IMG/VR virus record: IMGVR_UViG_3300005338_000010
Coordinates: 1-60,249 of that record
Source of the DNA: a virus
Direction: 5' to 3' (one strand)
Length of the DNA: 60,249 nt
Within the stretch, counting starts at the first letter, position 1, and each line of letters opens with the position of its first letter. Shown here piece by piece: positions 317-49,566 of this stretch. A program made the translations under genes and the position numbers. Below the pieces are notes generated by a model. It had not been told where the DNA came from and searched no databases. It worked only from the letters and a program-made list of their open reading frames with translations.

Positions 317-1393
317 GTGCTAACTTTTAAACGAAAACTAATTTTGACTAAAGCTCAAGAACGAAGGATTAATTCCTGGGTAGGGGTTTGTCGTTTCGTT
401 TACAATTTGTGCAAGGAAATTCAACAGGAGGCTTGCAAAAACAAGGGTACTTATATCCATAAGTATGAGCTAATGAAGCAGTTAACCGAAATACGAAACG
501 TCGATTGGATAGGAGATGTGCCCCGCGACGGAATTGAGGACGCGATAAAACGTATGGATAATAGCTACAAAGCATTTTTCAAGGGCGGCGGATTTCCGAA
601 ATGGGCCAGCAAGAAGCGATTTAATTCTATCCGATTCAAACAGGTTATTTCAGTTGAAGATAGATTCGTACAAGTGCCGAAATTGGGCAAGTTAAAGATG
701 GTTAAGGATAGGCCGGTGGTAGGAAAAATTAAACAAATTACGATAAAAAGGCAGGTTGACGGGTACTATGCCTGTATAGCCACGGATGCAGTAAAATCAA
801 TTCAATGCCACGATGAGAACCAAGTTTTGGCGCTGGATATGGGCTTAAAGCACTTCGCGGTTGACAGCAACGGGAACTACATAACAAACCCGAGGCATTT
901 TAAGACGCATGAGCGGCGGCTAAGAATCGAGAACAGATCCTTAGCCAGAAAGAAGAAAGGTGGCAAGAATTGGCGAAAACAAGCTCACAGACTGGCGAGG
1001 CTGCATAATAAGATAGCCAATGTGCGCCGTGATTTTTTACATAAGGAATCCACAAGAATTGCCAAGGCTAACTACATTGTAATCCTGGAGGATTTAAACA
1101 TTTCCGGGATGGCTAAAAACGGGAACCTAAGCAAGCATATTTTAGATTGCGGATGGGGCATGTTCCGGGGGATGCTTAACTACAAAACCATAGTAATTGT
1201 AATTAACCCAAAATATACATCGCAAACATGCAATTCCTGTGGGGTAAGAGATGCTAAAAGTAGAATTTCCCAATCAGAATTTGTTTGCACAGCCTGCGGG
1301 AAAGCCGACAATGCCGACAAGAACGCGGCCAACAATATACTAAGCAAAGGATTTGCTTTTATCTGTCAACGTGAGGCAATAGCCTGTGCGTAG
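317..1393 (+). CDS. tnpB: Solitary IS200/IS605-type TnpB (RNA-guided nuclease family)
   Basis: A 358-residue TnpB. The RuvC residues are visible: D174 in LALDMGLKHF, E258 in VILEDLNISGM and D334 in NADKNAANNI. A four-cysteine zinc finger (CNSCG ... CTACG) lies between the last two. The N-terminal KLILTKAQERRINSW and FPKWASKKRFNS segments are typical. The family cuts DNA guided by an omega RNA from the element's right end. The start is GTG at 317. No tnpA transposase is adjacent, so the element cannot move by itself. Oddity: between the conserved YK (helix after GWGMF) and NPKYTSQTC there are only six residues, about five fewer than I expect, which suggests a small in-frame deletion. The fold call is firm; activity is uncertain. 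Confidence 0.92.
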   Translation: MLTFKRKLILTKAQERRINSWVGVCRFVYNLCKEIQQEACKNKGTYIHKYELMKQLTEIRNVDWIGDVPRDGIEDAIKRMDNSYKAFFKGGGFPKWASKKRFNSIRFKQVISVEDRFVQVPKLGKLKMVKDRPVVGKIKQITIKRQVDGYYACIATDAVKSIQCHDENQVLALDMGLKHFAVDSNGNYITNPRHFKTHERRLRIENRSLARKKKGGKNWRKQAHRLARLHNKIANVRRDFLHKESTRIAKANYIVILEDLNISGMAKNGNLSKHILDCGWGMFRGMLNYKTIVIVINPKYTSQTCNSCGVRDAKSRISQSEFVCTACGKADNADKNAANNILSKGFAFICQREAIACA

Positions 1394-40588: not shown

Positions 40589-40676
40589 TTAAGGATATTT
40601 CCATAAAAGTAGTGTTTTTAAATGAAAAAACCTTTGCGGGTATCGCCACGGGCGTTCGGAACCATCCCCGGAAGAA

Positions 40677-40722
40677 GGCCGTCCGCGACAAATTGAGTTA
40701 ATTTTATTTTATGATGAAATTT
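40677..40722 (+). repeat. Inverted repeat, left copy (46 bp)
   Basis: Identical to the reverse complement of 41701-41745 except for one extra A (in TTGAGTTAA here against TTGGTTAA there). It starts GGCCGTCCGCGACAAATTG and ends with the ATGATGAAATTT start of a gene. The distance between arms is about 980 bp. Confidence 0.9.
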
Positions 40723-40818
40723 AAAACTCACCACGACATTACATAGCGGAATAAAAAATCATTTTGCTTATAACTGTAGTTTTATGTTAAGCAGCCGCTA
40801 CGCAGGAATGCTGGCTAA
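40711..40818 (+). pseudogene. Decayed inverted copy of the 67-aa gene
   Basis: Begins ATGATGAAATTT like the intact gene at 41509-41712, then loses about 40 nt and stops after MMKFKTHHDIT. Further downstream ACTCACCACGAC, a CATTTTGCTTAT stretch, TTATGTTAAGCAGC and GCAGG..TGCTGGCTAAT still align with the intact gene. It is therefore a degenerate duplicate in opposite orientation. Confidence 0.7.
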
Positions 40819-40893
40819 TAAAAAACAAGCCCACCCTGCGCTAAACTGAATGCAAGAACCTGTATATTCAGTCTACGCAAAAACACCGAATAT

Positions 40894-41340
40894 ATGACAC
40901 CCCCATTTCATACTGAACAACAGCGATTGATGGCGCAGAATGGTATTCAAAGGGTTTTTAAACATGACGATAAAAAAGATGTAGTTAATTATATTAAAAC
41001 CGAAATAAAGCGATCTGCATCAGTAAATATAACCGACGCCTGCGATGCTGTATTTAAAGGGAAGCCTTTCAGTGGAGAAATATCAGAAATAGAATTTTAC
41101 GAATCTGTTTCTGCCATGCTTGTTAATTCAGGAGAATATTTGAGAGAAAAATCCGATAGTGGATTTAATATTCTTTTAAATCCTGCGTATTATCACAATA
41201 GAAGTGTAAAACGTATTAGTTGGACAGCAGTAATAATATCGACTATATCTTTACTCATCGCTATACTTACATACTATACAAACGTAACGTGGCACACACA
41301 GCAAAAACAGCAGACACTACAACAAACAACAACAAAATAG
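40894..41340 (+). CDS. Membrane-anchored protein inside the inverted repeat
   Basis: 148 residues. The N-terminal 100 residues look like a small winged-helix-type alpha/beta domain (DVVNYIKTEIKRSASVNITD; FYESVSAMLVNSGEYLREKS). A membrane span follows (WTAVIISTISLLIAILTYYT), then a short polar Gln/Thr tail. I have seen this arrangement in Bacteroidota genomes without known function. It is the only intact plus-strand gene between the two arms of the inverted repeat and stands against the surrounding minus-strand genes. Confidence 0.6.
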   Translation: MTPPFHTEQQRLMAQNGIQRVFKHDDKKDVVNYIKTEIKRSASVNITDACDAVFKGKPFSGEISEIEFYESVSAMLVNSGEYLREKSDSGFNILLNPAYYHNRSVKRISWTAVIISTISLLIAILTYYTNVTWHTQQKQQTLQQTTTK

Positions 41341-41508
41341 CAATAATTGCCCCCCACCACCTATCTTCAATAATGTCGAAATTAAAACCAAAATACCATT
41401 CAAAGAATTTCATAGTCTGTTTTTAGAAATAACTATGAATCAATTTCTGGCTTAAATTTCGGCTCCAACGTCGCCTACCGGCTCCGTTTGCCCTGTTTTT
41501 GTTTTTAA

Positions 41509-41712
41509 TTAGCCAGCACTCAGCCTGCCATCTGAAGTCAAATCTTCTTTTTGGAATTTAAGATTTGACTTCCACAAAGCCAATAGCTGCTCAACATAAT
41601 ATAAGTTGATAAGCGAAAATGCTTTTTTGAATGTTTTGATGGTCGTGGTGAGTATGGCGAAAAATATAGAAGGAACAGAAATAAATAATATTTTTCGCCA
41701 AAATTTCATCAT
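41509..41712 (-). CDS. Small membrane-type protein, intact copy of the inverted duplicate
   Basis: 67 residues: MMKFWRKILFISVPSIFFAI is a membrane or signal-like N-terminus, and the rest is polar (VEQLLALWKSNLKFQKEDLT). The first 12 nt lie in the 45-bp inverted repeat. A 13-bp palindrome (41534-41572) falls within the C-terminal coding part and is missing from the decayed copy at 40711-40818. Function unknown. Confidence 0.5.
   Translation of the reverse strand: MMKFWRKILFISVPSIFFAILTTTIKTFKKAFSLINLYYVEQLLALWKSNLKFQKEDLTSDGRLSAG
41534..41572. repeat. Perfect 13-bp palindrome (hairpin)
   Basis: GAAGTCAAATCTT (41534-41546) and its exact complement AAGATTTGACTTC (41560-41572) enclose a 13-nt spacer. 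It lies in the 3' part of the 67-aa gene and is absent from the duplicate copy, as if inserted after duplication. Confidence 0.85.
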
Positions 41713-41745
41713 AAAATAAAATTAACCAATTTGTCGCGGACGGCC
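41701..41745 (-). repeat. Inverted repeat, right copy (45 bp)
   Basis: Partner of 40677-40722. It ends 11 bp before the stop-side end of the 193-aa GroES-like gene (41757) and contains the start of the intact 67-aa gene. Confidence 0.9.
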
Positions 41746-41756
41746 AAAAGAATCTG

Positions 41757-42338
41757 TCAGCCCTCCCTTAGATTTTTATTCCCTACCCGCTCCGGTTTTA
41801 GCACTCCACAGACCATTTCTGAATCCACTTTTGTTACCGACTTCTCTACTCCGTTTATATTATAAATAATTTTGTACCCAGAATACGGTCTTGTGAAAAC
41901 AATATCTCCAACCTTGTAATCTTTTAGCCAGCCTGGATTGGTTACTTTATACCTATTCTTATGAAACTCTCTTTGGTCTGGTGGCACAGGGAATATTGTT
42001 TCAACCTCTATTTCTTCACAAAGCATGTTGCCACATATAGGGTCTAATTCACCGTCAGCCTTTAGTTTGGCAAAAAGCACTTTTGAAAAAGGGATGGAAA
42101 ATAGATCGTCTTGCAAATGAAAGGGGCTTGGCAGGTAAAGCAAATTGTGGTGAACCAAGAGTATGTCACCGTAAGAAACGAAGCGATTGCCTTCTACAAC
42201 TTCGCAAACGGTGGGACTTCTGTACCTGTAGTTTACCTCCCATTTAATAGCAGTAGAAACAAGTATGTCACCAATCTTTCTTTCATTTTTTTGATTAATA
42301 TCACAGCGAACTATTATCTTCTTGTTTGTCGGATTCAT
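41757..42338 (-). CDS. GroES-like (co-chaperonin-fold) protein, possibly two barrels
   Basis: 193 residues. It looks like two GroES-type halves. The first has DILVSTAIKWEVNYRYRSPT, then VCEVVEGNRFVSYGDILLVH, matching the GroES strand order (start, mobile loop, V..VGxG, GD.v). The second has YKVGDIVFTRPYSGYKIIYN, then VTKVDSEMVCGVLKPE, matching the GroES end (y.v....ilavl). It lies at the end of the RHH-groEL-groES run. A second, phage-specific lid for the chaperonin is an inference. Confidence 0.5.
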   Translation of the reverse strand: MNPTNKKIIVRCDINQKNERKIGDILVSTAIKWEVNYRYRSPTVCEVVEGNRFVSYGDILLVHHNLLYLPSPFHLQDDLFSIPFSKVLFAKLKADGELDPICGNMLCEEIEVETIFPVPPDQREFHKNRYKVTNPGWLKDYKVGDIVFTRPYSGYKIIYNINGVEKSVTKVDSEMVCGVLKPERVGNKNLREG

Positions 42339-42546
42339 TCCATTTACCTATTGATAAGTATGCTATTCCTCTTTTTAATTTTTGTATATCCAAGTCAGAC
42401 GGCAAGAACTGTTCTTCAATATAAGCGGCATATTTAATTTCGGAAGCCTGCGTTGGAAATGGAACCCACTTTAATGCAAAAATGTATTCCAGCAGTTTGT
42501 CGTCTGGGACGGACATTATTTCCTTCGTAATGCGCTTAAACCTCAT
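42301..42546 (-). CDS. Small protein between two GroES-type genes
   Basis: 81 residues (MRFKRITKEIMSVPDDKLLE ... LDIQKLKRGIAYLSIGKWNE), helical and charged, no family recognised. It overlaps the groES stop by 4 nt (ATGA) and its end overlaps the 193-aa gene by 38 nt, so it belongs to the chaperonin operon. Confidence 0.55.
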   Translation of the reverse strand: MRFKRITKEIMSVPDDKLLEYIFALKWVPFPTQASEIKYAAYIEEQFLPSDLDIQKLKRGIAYLSIGKWNESDKQEDNSSL

Positions 42547-42809
42547 GGCATTGCAATTATCTGCTCGCCTTCAAGAACTAAGTATGTGGTATCTTCAAAC
42601 GGTAATTCAAATCCAACGGTAGCATGGAACAAACACTTCTTACCCTTCCCGGCCTTTACGTCTGGGTCTTTTACAAGTTTGCCTACAGATAGGATTGTCC
42701 CGCTGGCTGGCTTCACTTGGCCGATGCCGGGTATTGACAATCCTGCGCGCTCCCGCTCTACCTCATCCCTTATAACCAGCACGAAATTATTAGTCGCCTT
42801 TATTGACAT
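42543..42809 (-). CDS. groES: GroES co-chaperonin (phage-encoded)
   Basis: 88 residues from the ATG at 42809 (MSIKATNNFVLVIRDEVERE). An upstream in-frame ATG would overlap groEL, so the inner one, 4 bp after the groEL stop, is chosen. The GroES signature follows: DEVERERAGLSIPG as the mobile loop, then GTILSVGKLV and a final YLVLEGEQIIAMP (EEYLVLxExDILA in the family). It caps GroEL as a heptameric lid. The mobile loop differs from the usual KTAGGIVLPG and may be tuned to the phage GroEL. Confidence 0.88.
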   Translation of the reverse strand: MSIKATNNFVLVIRDEVERERAGLSIPGIGQVKPASGTILSVGKLVKDPDVKAGKGKKCLFHATVGFELPFEDTTYLVLEGEQIIAMP

Positions 42810-42813
42810 ATAT

Positions 42814-44394
42814 TTAGTTAAGATAGTCCACAATTAAAACTTCACTTGTAAGAATCATTCCGGCGCTGCTGGCTGCATTTTGTAATGCGCAGCGCAAAAC
42901 TTTTACAGGGTCTATAATTCCACTTTCTACCAAATCCTCAATCTTATCCGTTTTTGCATTATATCCTATATTACCGGATGCCGAAAAAACCCTGCTTACC
43001 GTCCCCAATGGATCTACGCCAGCATTTTGACATATCTGCAATAGCGGGGAGTGTATTGCGTCAAACAAGACTAATTCGTTCTTTGTCGCTGAATCTGGGG
43101 CTGTAATTCTTAAAAATGCAGTACCGGCACCTGCTACAAAACCTTCTGAAATTGCTGCTTTTACAGCCCGAACGCTATCATCAAACCTGTCCAGCTTTTC
43201 TTTCATTTCCGTTTCCGTAGCAGCGCCAACCTGAATCACGGCAACGCCACCGGTAATTTTTGCTATTCGTTTTTCTATGGGTGCGCGTTCATCCTCATTC
43301 TTTGCCTGCGCAAGATTCATGCGAAGTTCATTCAATAGGTCAGCCACCTCTCCTTCGCCAGATACGCCACCTATTATTACGGTTTCATCTTTTGTTACAA
43401 TTACTTTTTTGGCCTGTCCGAATTGTGGGTTGTCAGCCTTTTTTATATCCACGCCTTTGGTATCACTTATGTAAGTGGCCCCTGTAAGTATTGCAATATC
43501 CTCCATTTCTACCCTACGGTCATTACCGAATGCGGGAGATTTTACGACGCAGCAGCGGATTTTATTTTGAACGGTATTCATAGCCAAGAAAGCTAATCCT
43601 TCATCTCTTGCATCCTCGCATATAATAAGTAGCGGCCTGTTCTGCCTACCTGCTGCTATCAATGCGCTTTCAATCTGACTATGGTGGGTAACCGCCTTTT
43701 CGTAAAGAAGAATAAGTGGGTCGTCAAATTCGCAGATTTGCTTTTCTGGTTTATTGATAAAATAAGGGCTTATCCACCCATTGTTCCACTTATAACCATC
43801 CGATATTTTTATTTCAGTAGAAACTCCTGTGCTTGCCTCTAAGTCAACAATCCCATCGTCGCCTATTTTTTCAAATGCTTTTGCAATCCAGTCGCCAATT
43901 TCTGGATCATTATTGGCTGACACTGTAGCTATTTGCCTGATGCGATCTATGTTCCCTTTTATTGGTACAGCCATTTTCTTAAGCTCCCCCACTACATATT
44001 CAACCGCTTTATCAATTCCACGCTTTAATTCCATAGGGTTAGCACCTTCGTCAATCAATTCAATTCCTTTTGAAACAATAGCACGTAATAAGAAAACTGT
44101 TGTTGAAGTACCATCGCCAGCTTGGTTTACAGTCTTTTGCGCAGCTTCTTTTACCATTGTAGATCCAACTGATTGAAAAGGGTCTTGCAATTGGAATGCC
44201 TGCGTAGTACGATACCCGTCCTTTGTGACATTGATAGGCAAGTTCCTGGTACTATAATCAACCACGACAGATTCTGAAATTAAAACATTCCTTCCTGAAG
44301 GCCCAAGAGTTTGAACAACCGCATCTGCTATTTTATTAACGCCAGCCAAAACCGCTGCCCTTGCTTCTTTTCCGTAAAGTACTTTTTTATTCAT
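42814..44394 (-). CDS. groEL: GroEL chaperonin (phage-encoded)
   Basis: 526 residues, full length. ATP-site elements are present: TLGPSGRNVLI, VTKDGYRTTQAF, NQAGDGTSTTVF (the metal-binding Asp) and RFDDSVRAVKAAISEGFVAG (the Asp that drives hydrolysis). The intermediate KITGGVAVIQVGAATETEMK is intact. The C-terminal Gly-Gly-Met tail of bacterial GroEL is missing (ends LIVDYLN). It is divergent from bacterial GroEL and so is a long-standing phage gene. It starts 1 bp after the 44-aa RHH gene. It probably folds capsid or fibre proteins too large for, or not recognised by, the host chaperonin. Confidence 0.95.
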   Translation of the reverse strand: MNKKVLYGKEARAAVLAGVNKIADAVVQTLGPSGRNVLISESVVVDYSTRNLPINVTKDGYRTTQAFQLQDPFQSVGSTMVKEAAQKTVNQAGDGTSTTVFLLRAIVSKGIELIDEGANPMELKRGIDKAVEYVVGELKKMAVPIKGNIDRIRQIATVSANNDPEIGDWIAKAFEKIGDDGIVDLEASTGVSTEIKISDGYKWNNGWISPYFINKPEKQICEFDDPLILLYEKAVTHHSQIESALIAAGRQNRPLLIICEDARDEGLAFLAMNTVQNKIRCCVVKSPAFGNDRRVEMEDIAILTGATYISDTKGVDIKKADNPQFGQAKKVIVTKDETVIIGGVSGEGEVADLLNELRMNLAQAKNEDERAPIEKRIAKITGGVAVIQVGAATETEMKEKLDRFDDSVRAVKAAISEGFVAGAGTAFLRITAPDSATKNELVLFDAIHSPLLQICQNAGVDPLGTVSRVFSASGNIGYNAKTDKIEDLVESGIIDPVKVLRCALQNAASSAGMILTSEVLIVDYLN

Positions 44395-44656: not shown

Positions 44657-44920
44657 ATGGCAAGTAATGTAACAGCGAGTATTAATGTCTACCAGATTAA
44701 CAACAGGGTAATGGACAGAGATTCTCCCCAGAAATTCGCATTCCCAACAACCGGATGTATCCTACAGGATGTATCTACTTCACCACAGCGTAGCCTTTCT
44801 TCTGGCTACAATGTTTATGGACTTATTATAGTTCCATCAAGTGCAGCAGCTAATTCACAAGGAACATCTTATTATGTTGCAGAAACAATTGCACAGTTAG
44901 CCACCATTTTCAACGCCTAA
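44657..44920 (+). CDS. Isolated small protein, probably highly expressed
   Basis: 87 residues: MASNVTASINVYQINNRVMD, then SGYNVYGLIIVPSSAAANSQ and a helical end. Short, Ser/Asn/Thr-rich, no cysteine-rich or membrane features. It is a single plus-strand gene between two minus-strand operons with a strong terminator 20 bp after its stop. Size and composition would suit a head decoration protein, but no family is recognised. Confidence 0.6.
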   Translation: MASNVTASINVYQINNRVMDRDSPQKFAFPTTGCILQDVSTSPQRSLSSGYNVYGLIIVPSSAAANSQGTSYYVAETIAQLATIFNA

Positions 44921-48903: not shown

Positions 48904-49566
48904 TTAGAATAGACTCTTTTTTCTTCTTTTGAACTTATTGCTAGAATAGTATTCGCAAATCCACGCAAAAGATTTTCCTTTATCAAGAAAATAATTAATA
49001 TAATCAGGCTTCACATCAAAAAAATCTGCCCATCCTTGTAATATCATTTTTTTACCCTTATACTCATACCACACATTGCTTCCCTTATTGCCTTGCTGCT
49101 CTTTTTCTGTAGCCCATCTACAATTCCCCGGCCCATAATCTCCATCTTTATCTGGGAAGCGATCTAGGCTATGGGCTGGCGATGGCTTTAGCCCCATATC
49201 AGCCAAAAAATTCTCGAAACTATTAAGCCACCTATCGCACACCTTTATTCCCCTTCCGCCCCATCTATGAAAGTTTGCGCTATTCTCATTATAACATCGG
49301 CTTTTCATACATCCCCATGACCTATATTCGGGTAAACCAGACATGCCATGAGTTCTATAATTTGCAATCAGCCTTTCGGTTCTAATACAACCGCATGACT
49401 TTGTCAACCCCCTTCTTAAACAATTACTATCTACCGTTTTTATCGTCCCGCAATCACAAACACATACCCACTGACTTTGTCCAAATCTATTGGGGACACC
49501 TTTTTCGATTACGGTCAGCCGACCAAACACGGAACCGGTCAAATCCGGCAATTTTCTACCTCCCAT
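48904..49566 (-). CDS. HNH-type homing endonuclease-like phage protein
   Basis: 220 residues. It has the architecture of a common phage family: a zinc-ribbon-like start (LTGSVFGRLTVIEKG; CDCGTIKTVDSNCLRRGLTK; SCGC), then the nuclease region THGMSGLPEYRSWGCMKSRC with RWGGRGIKVCDRWLNSFENF and DRFPDKDGDYGPGNCRWATE. Members nick or cut DNA and are often free-standing mobile genes. It ends 42 bp upstream of the LuxR-type gene and overlaps the 172-aa gene by 11 nt. Confidence 0.75.
   Translation of the reverse strand: MGGRKLPDLTGSVFGRLTVIEKGVPNRFGQSQWVCVCDCGTIKTVDSNCLRRGLTKSCGCIRTERLIANYRTHGMSGLPEYRSWGCMKSRCYNENSANFHRWGGRGIKVCDRWLNSFENFLADMGLKPSPAHSLDRFPDKDGDYGPGNCRWATEKEQQGNKGSNVWYEYKGKKMILQGWADFFDVKPDYINYFLDKGKSFAWICEYYSSNKFKRRKKSLF

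Follow-up and report, generated by a model that had tools for sequence, protein, structure and literature searches.

Site-specific inversion between inverted arms is known from segments of the Gin/Cin type and from promoter inversions of the Bacteroidota. Inverted repeats also enclose mobile insertion cassettes (MIC/MICE), among which the qnrS2 cassette has repeats of 22 bp (PMC5444012). In phages, the mycobacteriophage mobile elements (MPME) are small inverted-repeat elements that are recognised by empty sites in close relatives, and one of them, MPME1, has a size of 439 bp and recurs in several phages (PMC3029335). The same publication provides the definition of phage morons that is followed here (PMC3029335). 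The locus described in the following, a gene enclosed by two inverted units next to the portal gene of a Bacteroidota-type phage, looks like an ordinary moron or transposon-like insertion and not like an invertible switch.

The window, i.e., the whole stretch of DNA that was analysed, consists of 60,249 bases of virus DNA (IMGVR_UViG_3300005338_000010). It encodes a portal protein matching phrog_6547, and also a large terminase, GroEL, and a GroES-like gene. Since the nearest cultured relatives of the portal protein (approximately 22% identity) belong to phages of Flavobacterium, Cellulophaga, Tenacibaculum, and Maribacter, the window probably represents a phage of Bacteroidota. A search with the portal protein alignment retrieved 11 relatives (L003 and L011–L020) whose portal proteins are 47–65% identical. 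The order of the GroES-like gene (42543–42833) and the GroEL gene (42814–44394), both on the minus strand, is kept in all 11 relatives; a complete chaperonin pair is uncommon among phages of this size. Near the start of the window lies an IS605-type TnpB gene (317–1393, plus strand; OrfB_IS605, Cas12f1-like zinc ribbon), and the ORF that follows it (1474–1962) has no TnpA match. A tie between the TnpB gene and the cassette was considered and discarded, as the two have no repeats in common.

In each of the 11 relatives, a homologue of the gene at 41757–42338 (minus strand, 193 aa) precedes the portal gene. The gap between these two genes measures 1,168 bp in the window (40589–41756), compared with 27–63 bp in eight relatives, 175 bp in L015, 704 bp in L014, and 748 bp in L013. 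The gaps of L013 (3702–4334) and L014 (5372–5977) hold a gene matching HNH endonuclease families. Since the gap is short in eight of the relatives and occupied by an HNH gene in two, the block at 40.6–41.8 kb (about 1.1 kb) is, as judged from this comparison, an insertion, and its site appears to take up foreign DNA repeatedly. The window has an HNH homologue of its own, which sits elsewhere (48904–49566, minus strand). The 175-bp gap of L015 (5796–5970) contains a terminator-like hairpin and is possibly a relic of another insertion there.

The left outer arm (40677–40722, plus strand, 46 nt, 5′ end GGCCGTCCGCGAC) and the right outer arm (41701–41745, minus strand, 45 nt) match in 45 of 46 columns, the left arm having one extra A, and are spaced 978 bp apart. 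With E = 8e-14 in a self-comparison of the window, they constitute the sole inverted repeat there at E ≤ 1e-4, and about 630 kb from the records of ten relatives contained one far weaker inverted pair (36 bp, 89%, 11 kb apart). The near-perfect 45-bp inverted repeat reported in the first-pass annotation is thus borne out, whereas its limitation to these 45 bp is not. Inward of the arms, 58 of 77 columns match (75%) with many single-base indels, and the homology is closed by an end block, TGCTGGCTAATWAAAAACAA, in which 19 of 21 columns match. Outward of the arms, beyond the sequence GGCC, the similarity is not significant (p = 0.2), and the outer boundary is sharp. Because the homology extends inward to the end block and stops outward, the repeat is a discrete unit with two conserved ends, 152 bp long on the left and 247 bp on the right. 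Conservation amounts to 98% at the outer end, 90% at the inner end, and 75% in the middle, and the difference in identity between the arm and the middle next to it is significant (Fisher p = 7e-4).

The left unit (40677–40828, plus strand) comprises the arm, the 75%-identical middle, and the end block ATGCTGGCTAATAAAAAACAA, and lacks hairpins. The right unit (41499–41745, minus strand) comprises the arm, hairpin 1, the middle, hairpin 2, and the end block GTGCTGGCTAATTAAAAACAA, and the difference in length is mostly due to the two hairpins. Hairpin 1 (41655–41700) begins where the arm identity ends and has perfect 13-bp arms (TGGCGAAAAATAT) around a 20-nt loop; hairpin 2 (41534–41572) also has perfect 13-bp arms (GAAGTCAAATCTT), with a 13-nt loop. 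These are the two longest perfect hairpins in the window and the only ones of at least 12 bp (loop up to 40); in ten relatives (656 kb) six such hairpins were found, overlaps counted, i.e., about one per 110 kb. The decay that the first-pass annotation had ascribed to the left copy was confirmed by a TAG stop after 11 codons (ATGATGAAATTTAAA...TAG) and by the loss of approximately 46 nt at the position of hairpin 1 and of a further stretch at that of hairpin 2, with the end block retained. An amplification chimera or assembly artefact was rejected as the source of the repeat, because the copies differ by many inner indels and substitutions and the neighbouring genes are intact.

At the margins of the insertion, a stretch of about 30 bp ahead of the portal gene has remained similar, by eye, to the upstream sequence of the relatives. 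Approximately 40–50 bp outside each arm are, likewise by eye, unlike the relatives, and since these flanks look non-native, the arms may not reach quite as far as the true insertion edges. At its 3′ end, the gene at 41757–42338 closes with ~11 codons that are missing from L003, which gives the impression that the insertion replaced the original end of the gene. The motif AAGAA is found at each outer edge, displaced by 2 nt on the right side. As 1.2% of random pairs do equally well (p = 0.012), this is suggestive of a target duplication, though a short and offset one. The composition of the cassette is only mildly unusual, with 8% of windows being as extreme in G + C content and 13% in trinucleotide content.

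Between the units, the plus strand carries an ORF of 148 aa (40894–41340), which is probably a real gene as its codon usage resembles that of the phage's own genes (p = 0.018 versus non-coding frames). With a C-terminal membrane helix (residues 108–126; KD19 2.15), its product is likely a membrane-anchored protein; with a pLDDT of 57, a model built from the single sequence was not good enough to search for similar folds. An ORF of 48 aa (41267–41413, minus strand) follows the right unit and overlaps the 3′ end of the oppositely oriented 148-aa ORF. It is a possible gene with a strong membrane helix (KD19 3.18) and a codon score of p = 0.07, and it matches no NCBIfam or Pfam family. A third ORF (67 aa; 41509–41712, minus strand) lies inside the right unit and contains both hairpins. 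With p = 0.10 and a rank at the third percentile of real genes, its codon score falls between coding and non-coding, so that of the earlier description of the right copy as a small gene the reading frame stands, while its coding status is doubtful. The 148-aa gene had also been regarded as the only plus-strand gene in this part, which is incorrect since a conserved gene at 44657–44920 (plus strand) lies nearby. This gene encodes 87 aa without a family match, is situated among minus-strand genes, and has kept its strand in 8 of the 11 relatives at 44–85% identity.

Searches against Pfam, PHROGs, NCBIfam, and PADLOC gave no match of note for the cassette proteins. The 148-aa and 67-aa proteins and the arm DNA had no relatives among viral contigs, bacterial and archaeal genomes, phages, and plasmids, and the 45-bp arm, for which a search of other phages had been suggested earlier, found no match in these collections; for the proteins the absence of matches is weak evidence, as single-protein searches reach close relatives only. 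Given that nothing in the viral, genome, phage, and plasmid collections matched the cassette, it is considered to lie outside the shared gene set of this phage group.

Like phage morons, the cassette is a block with its own gene between genes that are adjacent in relatives, and its cargo is oriented opposite to the operon (PMC3029335). The same junction is empty in 8 of 11 relatives, and by its position and its absence from relatives the block is, on comparative grounds, a moron in the main sense of the definition (PMC3029335). Unlike morons, it is bounded by two inverted units. A moron is also expected to have its own promoter and terminator, and consensus matches in the region are near chance (see below for the promoters covered). 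The anatomy, with a coding sequence between terminal inverted repeats and without a transposase, resembles that of mobile insertion cassettes (PMC5444012), and MITEs are similar in this respect. The cassette differs from both in having arms of 45 bp and further inner homology, of which usual terminal inverted repeats show less, and in that no clean target duplication was found. Membership in the class is not claimed, because the target duplication is doubtful and the general collections searched contained no known insertion sequence that matches the arms and could be the parent. Compared by description, the MPME are likewise small inverted-repeat elements in phage genomes with empty sites in relatives, but the cassette is present in one copy and has a different anatomy. 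In L013 and L014, two members of this phage group, HNH homing-type endonuclease genes occupy the intergenic site in which the cassette lies; the cassette, in contrast, has inverted flanks and does not code for an HNH protein.

With moderate confidence, the block is interpreted as a transposon-like moron cassette that is non-autonomous and has the two inverted units as its ends. According to this interpretation, about 1.07 kb of foreign DNA (40677–41745, perhaps with ~40–50 bp more on each side) would have entered between the portal gene and its 193-aa neighbour, a position that HNH-endonuclease genes occupy in other members of the group. The units would be the ends acted on in transfer, and the cassette may have been moved by a transposase in trans or by recombination. 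Drift would have affected the middle, whereas the outer arms would have remained near-identical, either as functional ends or through homogenisation by template switching or gene conversion. The insertion itself is evident from the comparison with the relatives, whereas we infer its movement by the two units; the cassette contains no transposase, and none of the collections searched yielded another copy of the unit. Of the two readings offered in the first-pass annotation, the one in which a cassette brought its own flanks along is supported by the site being empty in 8 of 11 relatives, while an invertible segment found no support. In the latter case, a recombinase acting on the arms would switch the orientation of the 148-aa gene with respect to the late operon. 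This appears very improbable, despite the near-perfect 45-bp inverted arms that enclose one oppositely oriented gene as in Gin/Cin type and Bacteroidota invertible segments, because, unlike in those systems, the record carries neither a tyrosine (PF00589) nor a serine (PF00239) recombinase, although a host enzyme might act on the arms. The profiles detected both families in at least 13 of 14 control genomes. Furthermore, the units are asymmetric (152 versus 247 bp), the cassette is absent from relatives, and no copy in the flipped orientation turned up among the assembled records searched, from which near-identical ones may be missing.

The main rival to the inserted cassette with functional ends is a plain inverted duplication, arisen locally inside the incoming segment, of a leader or small gene (promoter and leader, or the 67-aa gene) beside the 148-aa gene, with subsequent decay of the left copy. 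We regard this as possible but rather unlikely. The arms would then be alike as promoter and start signals of the convergent 148-aa (plus) and 48-aa (minus) genes, each of which is preceded on its own strand by a unit at a distance of 65–85 bp, and the frame-breaking indels of the left copy fit this explanation as well. However, a scan of the region for promoter consensus sequences, which left out Bacteroidota promoters, gave 8 matches versus 4.9 expected. Alternatively, the arms could have been homogenised by template switching during replication, a documented source of both arm homogenisation and perfect hairpins (PMC8794818, PMC8604942), two of which are found in the right unit. Selection would not be needed if template switching had produced the arms and hairpins, but the process is most efficient over short spacers and the arms are almost 1 kb apart; moreover, the site is empty in relatives and the outer boundary is sharp, which indicates that the whole block came in and is not a mere copy. 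A further alternative, which we consider improbable, is that the right unit acts as a structured non-coding RNA or a DNA structure (a regulatory or replication element) of which the left copy is a decayed relic. The fold of the right unit is markedly more stable than that of shuffled sequences (z = −4.5) and includes the two perfect 13-bp stems, hairpins of this strength are as rare in the relatives as stated above, and the coding signal of the 67-aa ORF is weak. On the other hand, the left copy has not kept the fold (z = −1.2), and searches with Rfam and for tRNAs yielded no match.

If the block is indeed a cassette moved by its ends, it is conceivable, albeit unlikely, that the units are the ends of an undescribed family of transposase-less elements of Bacteroidota phages, characterised by 45-bp arms and nested perfect hairpins, which would carry small membrane-protein genes into late-operon junctions. 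In this phage group, the site adjoining the portal gene appears to receive selfish or accessory genes that are unrelated to each other. The combination of empty sites in relatives and sharp ends makes the cassette a clean case for asking how phage morons are delivered, and if a second cassette with the same ends turned up, the movement of morons would become testable here.
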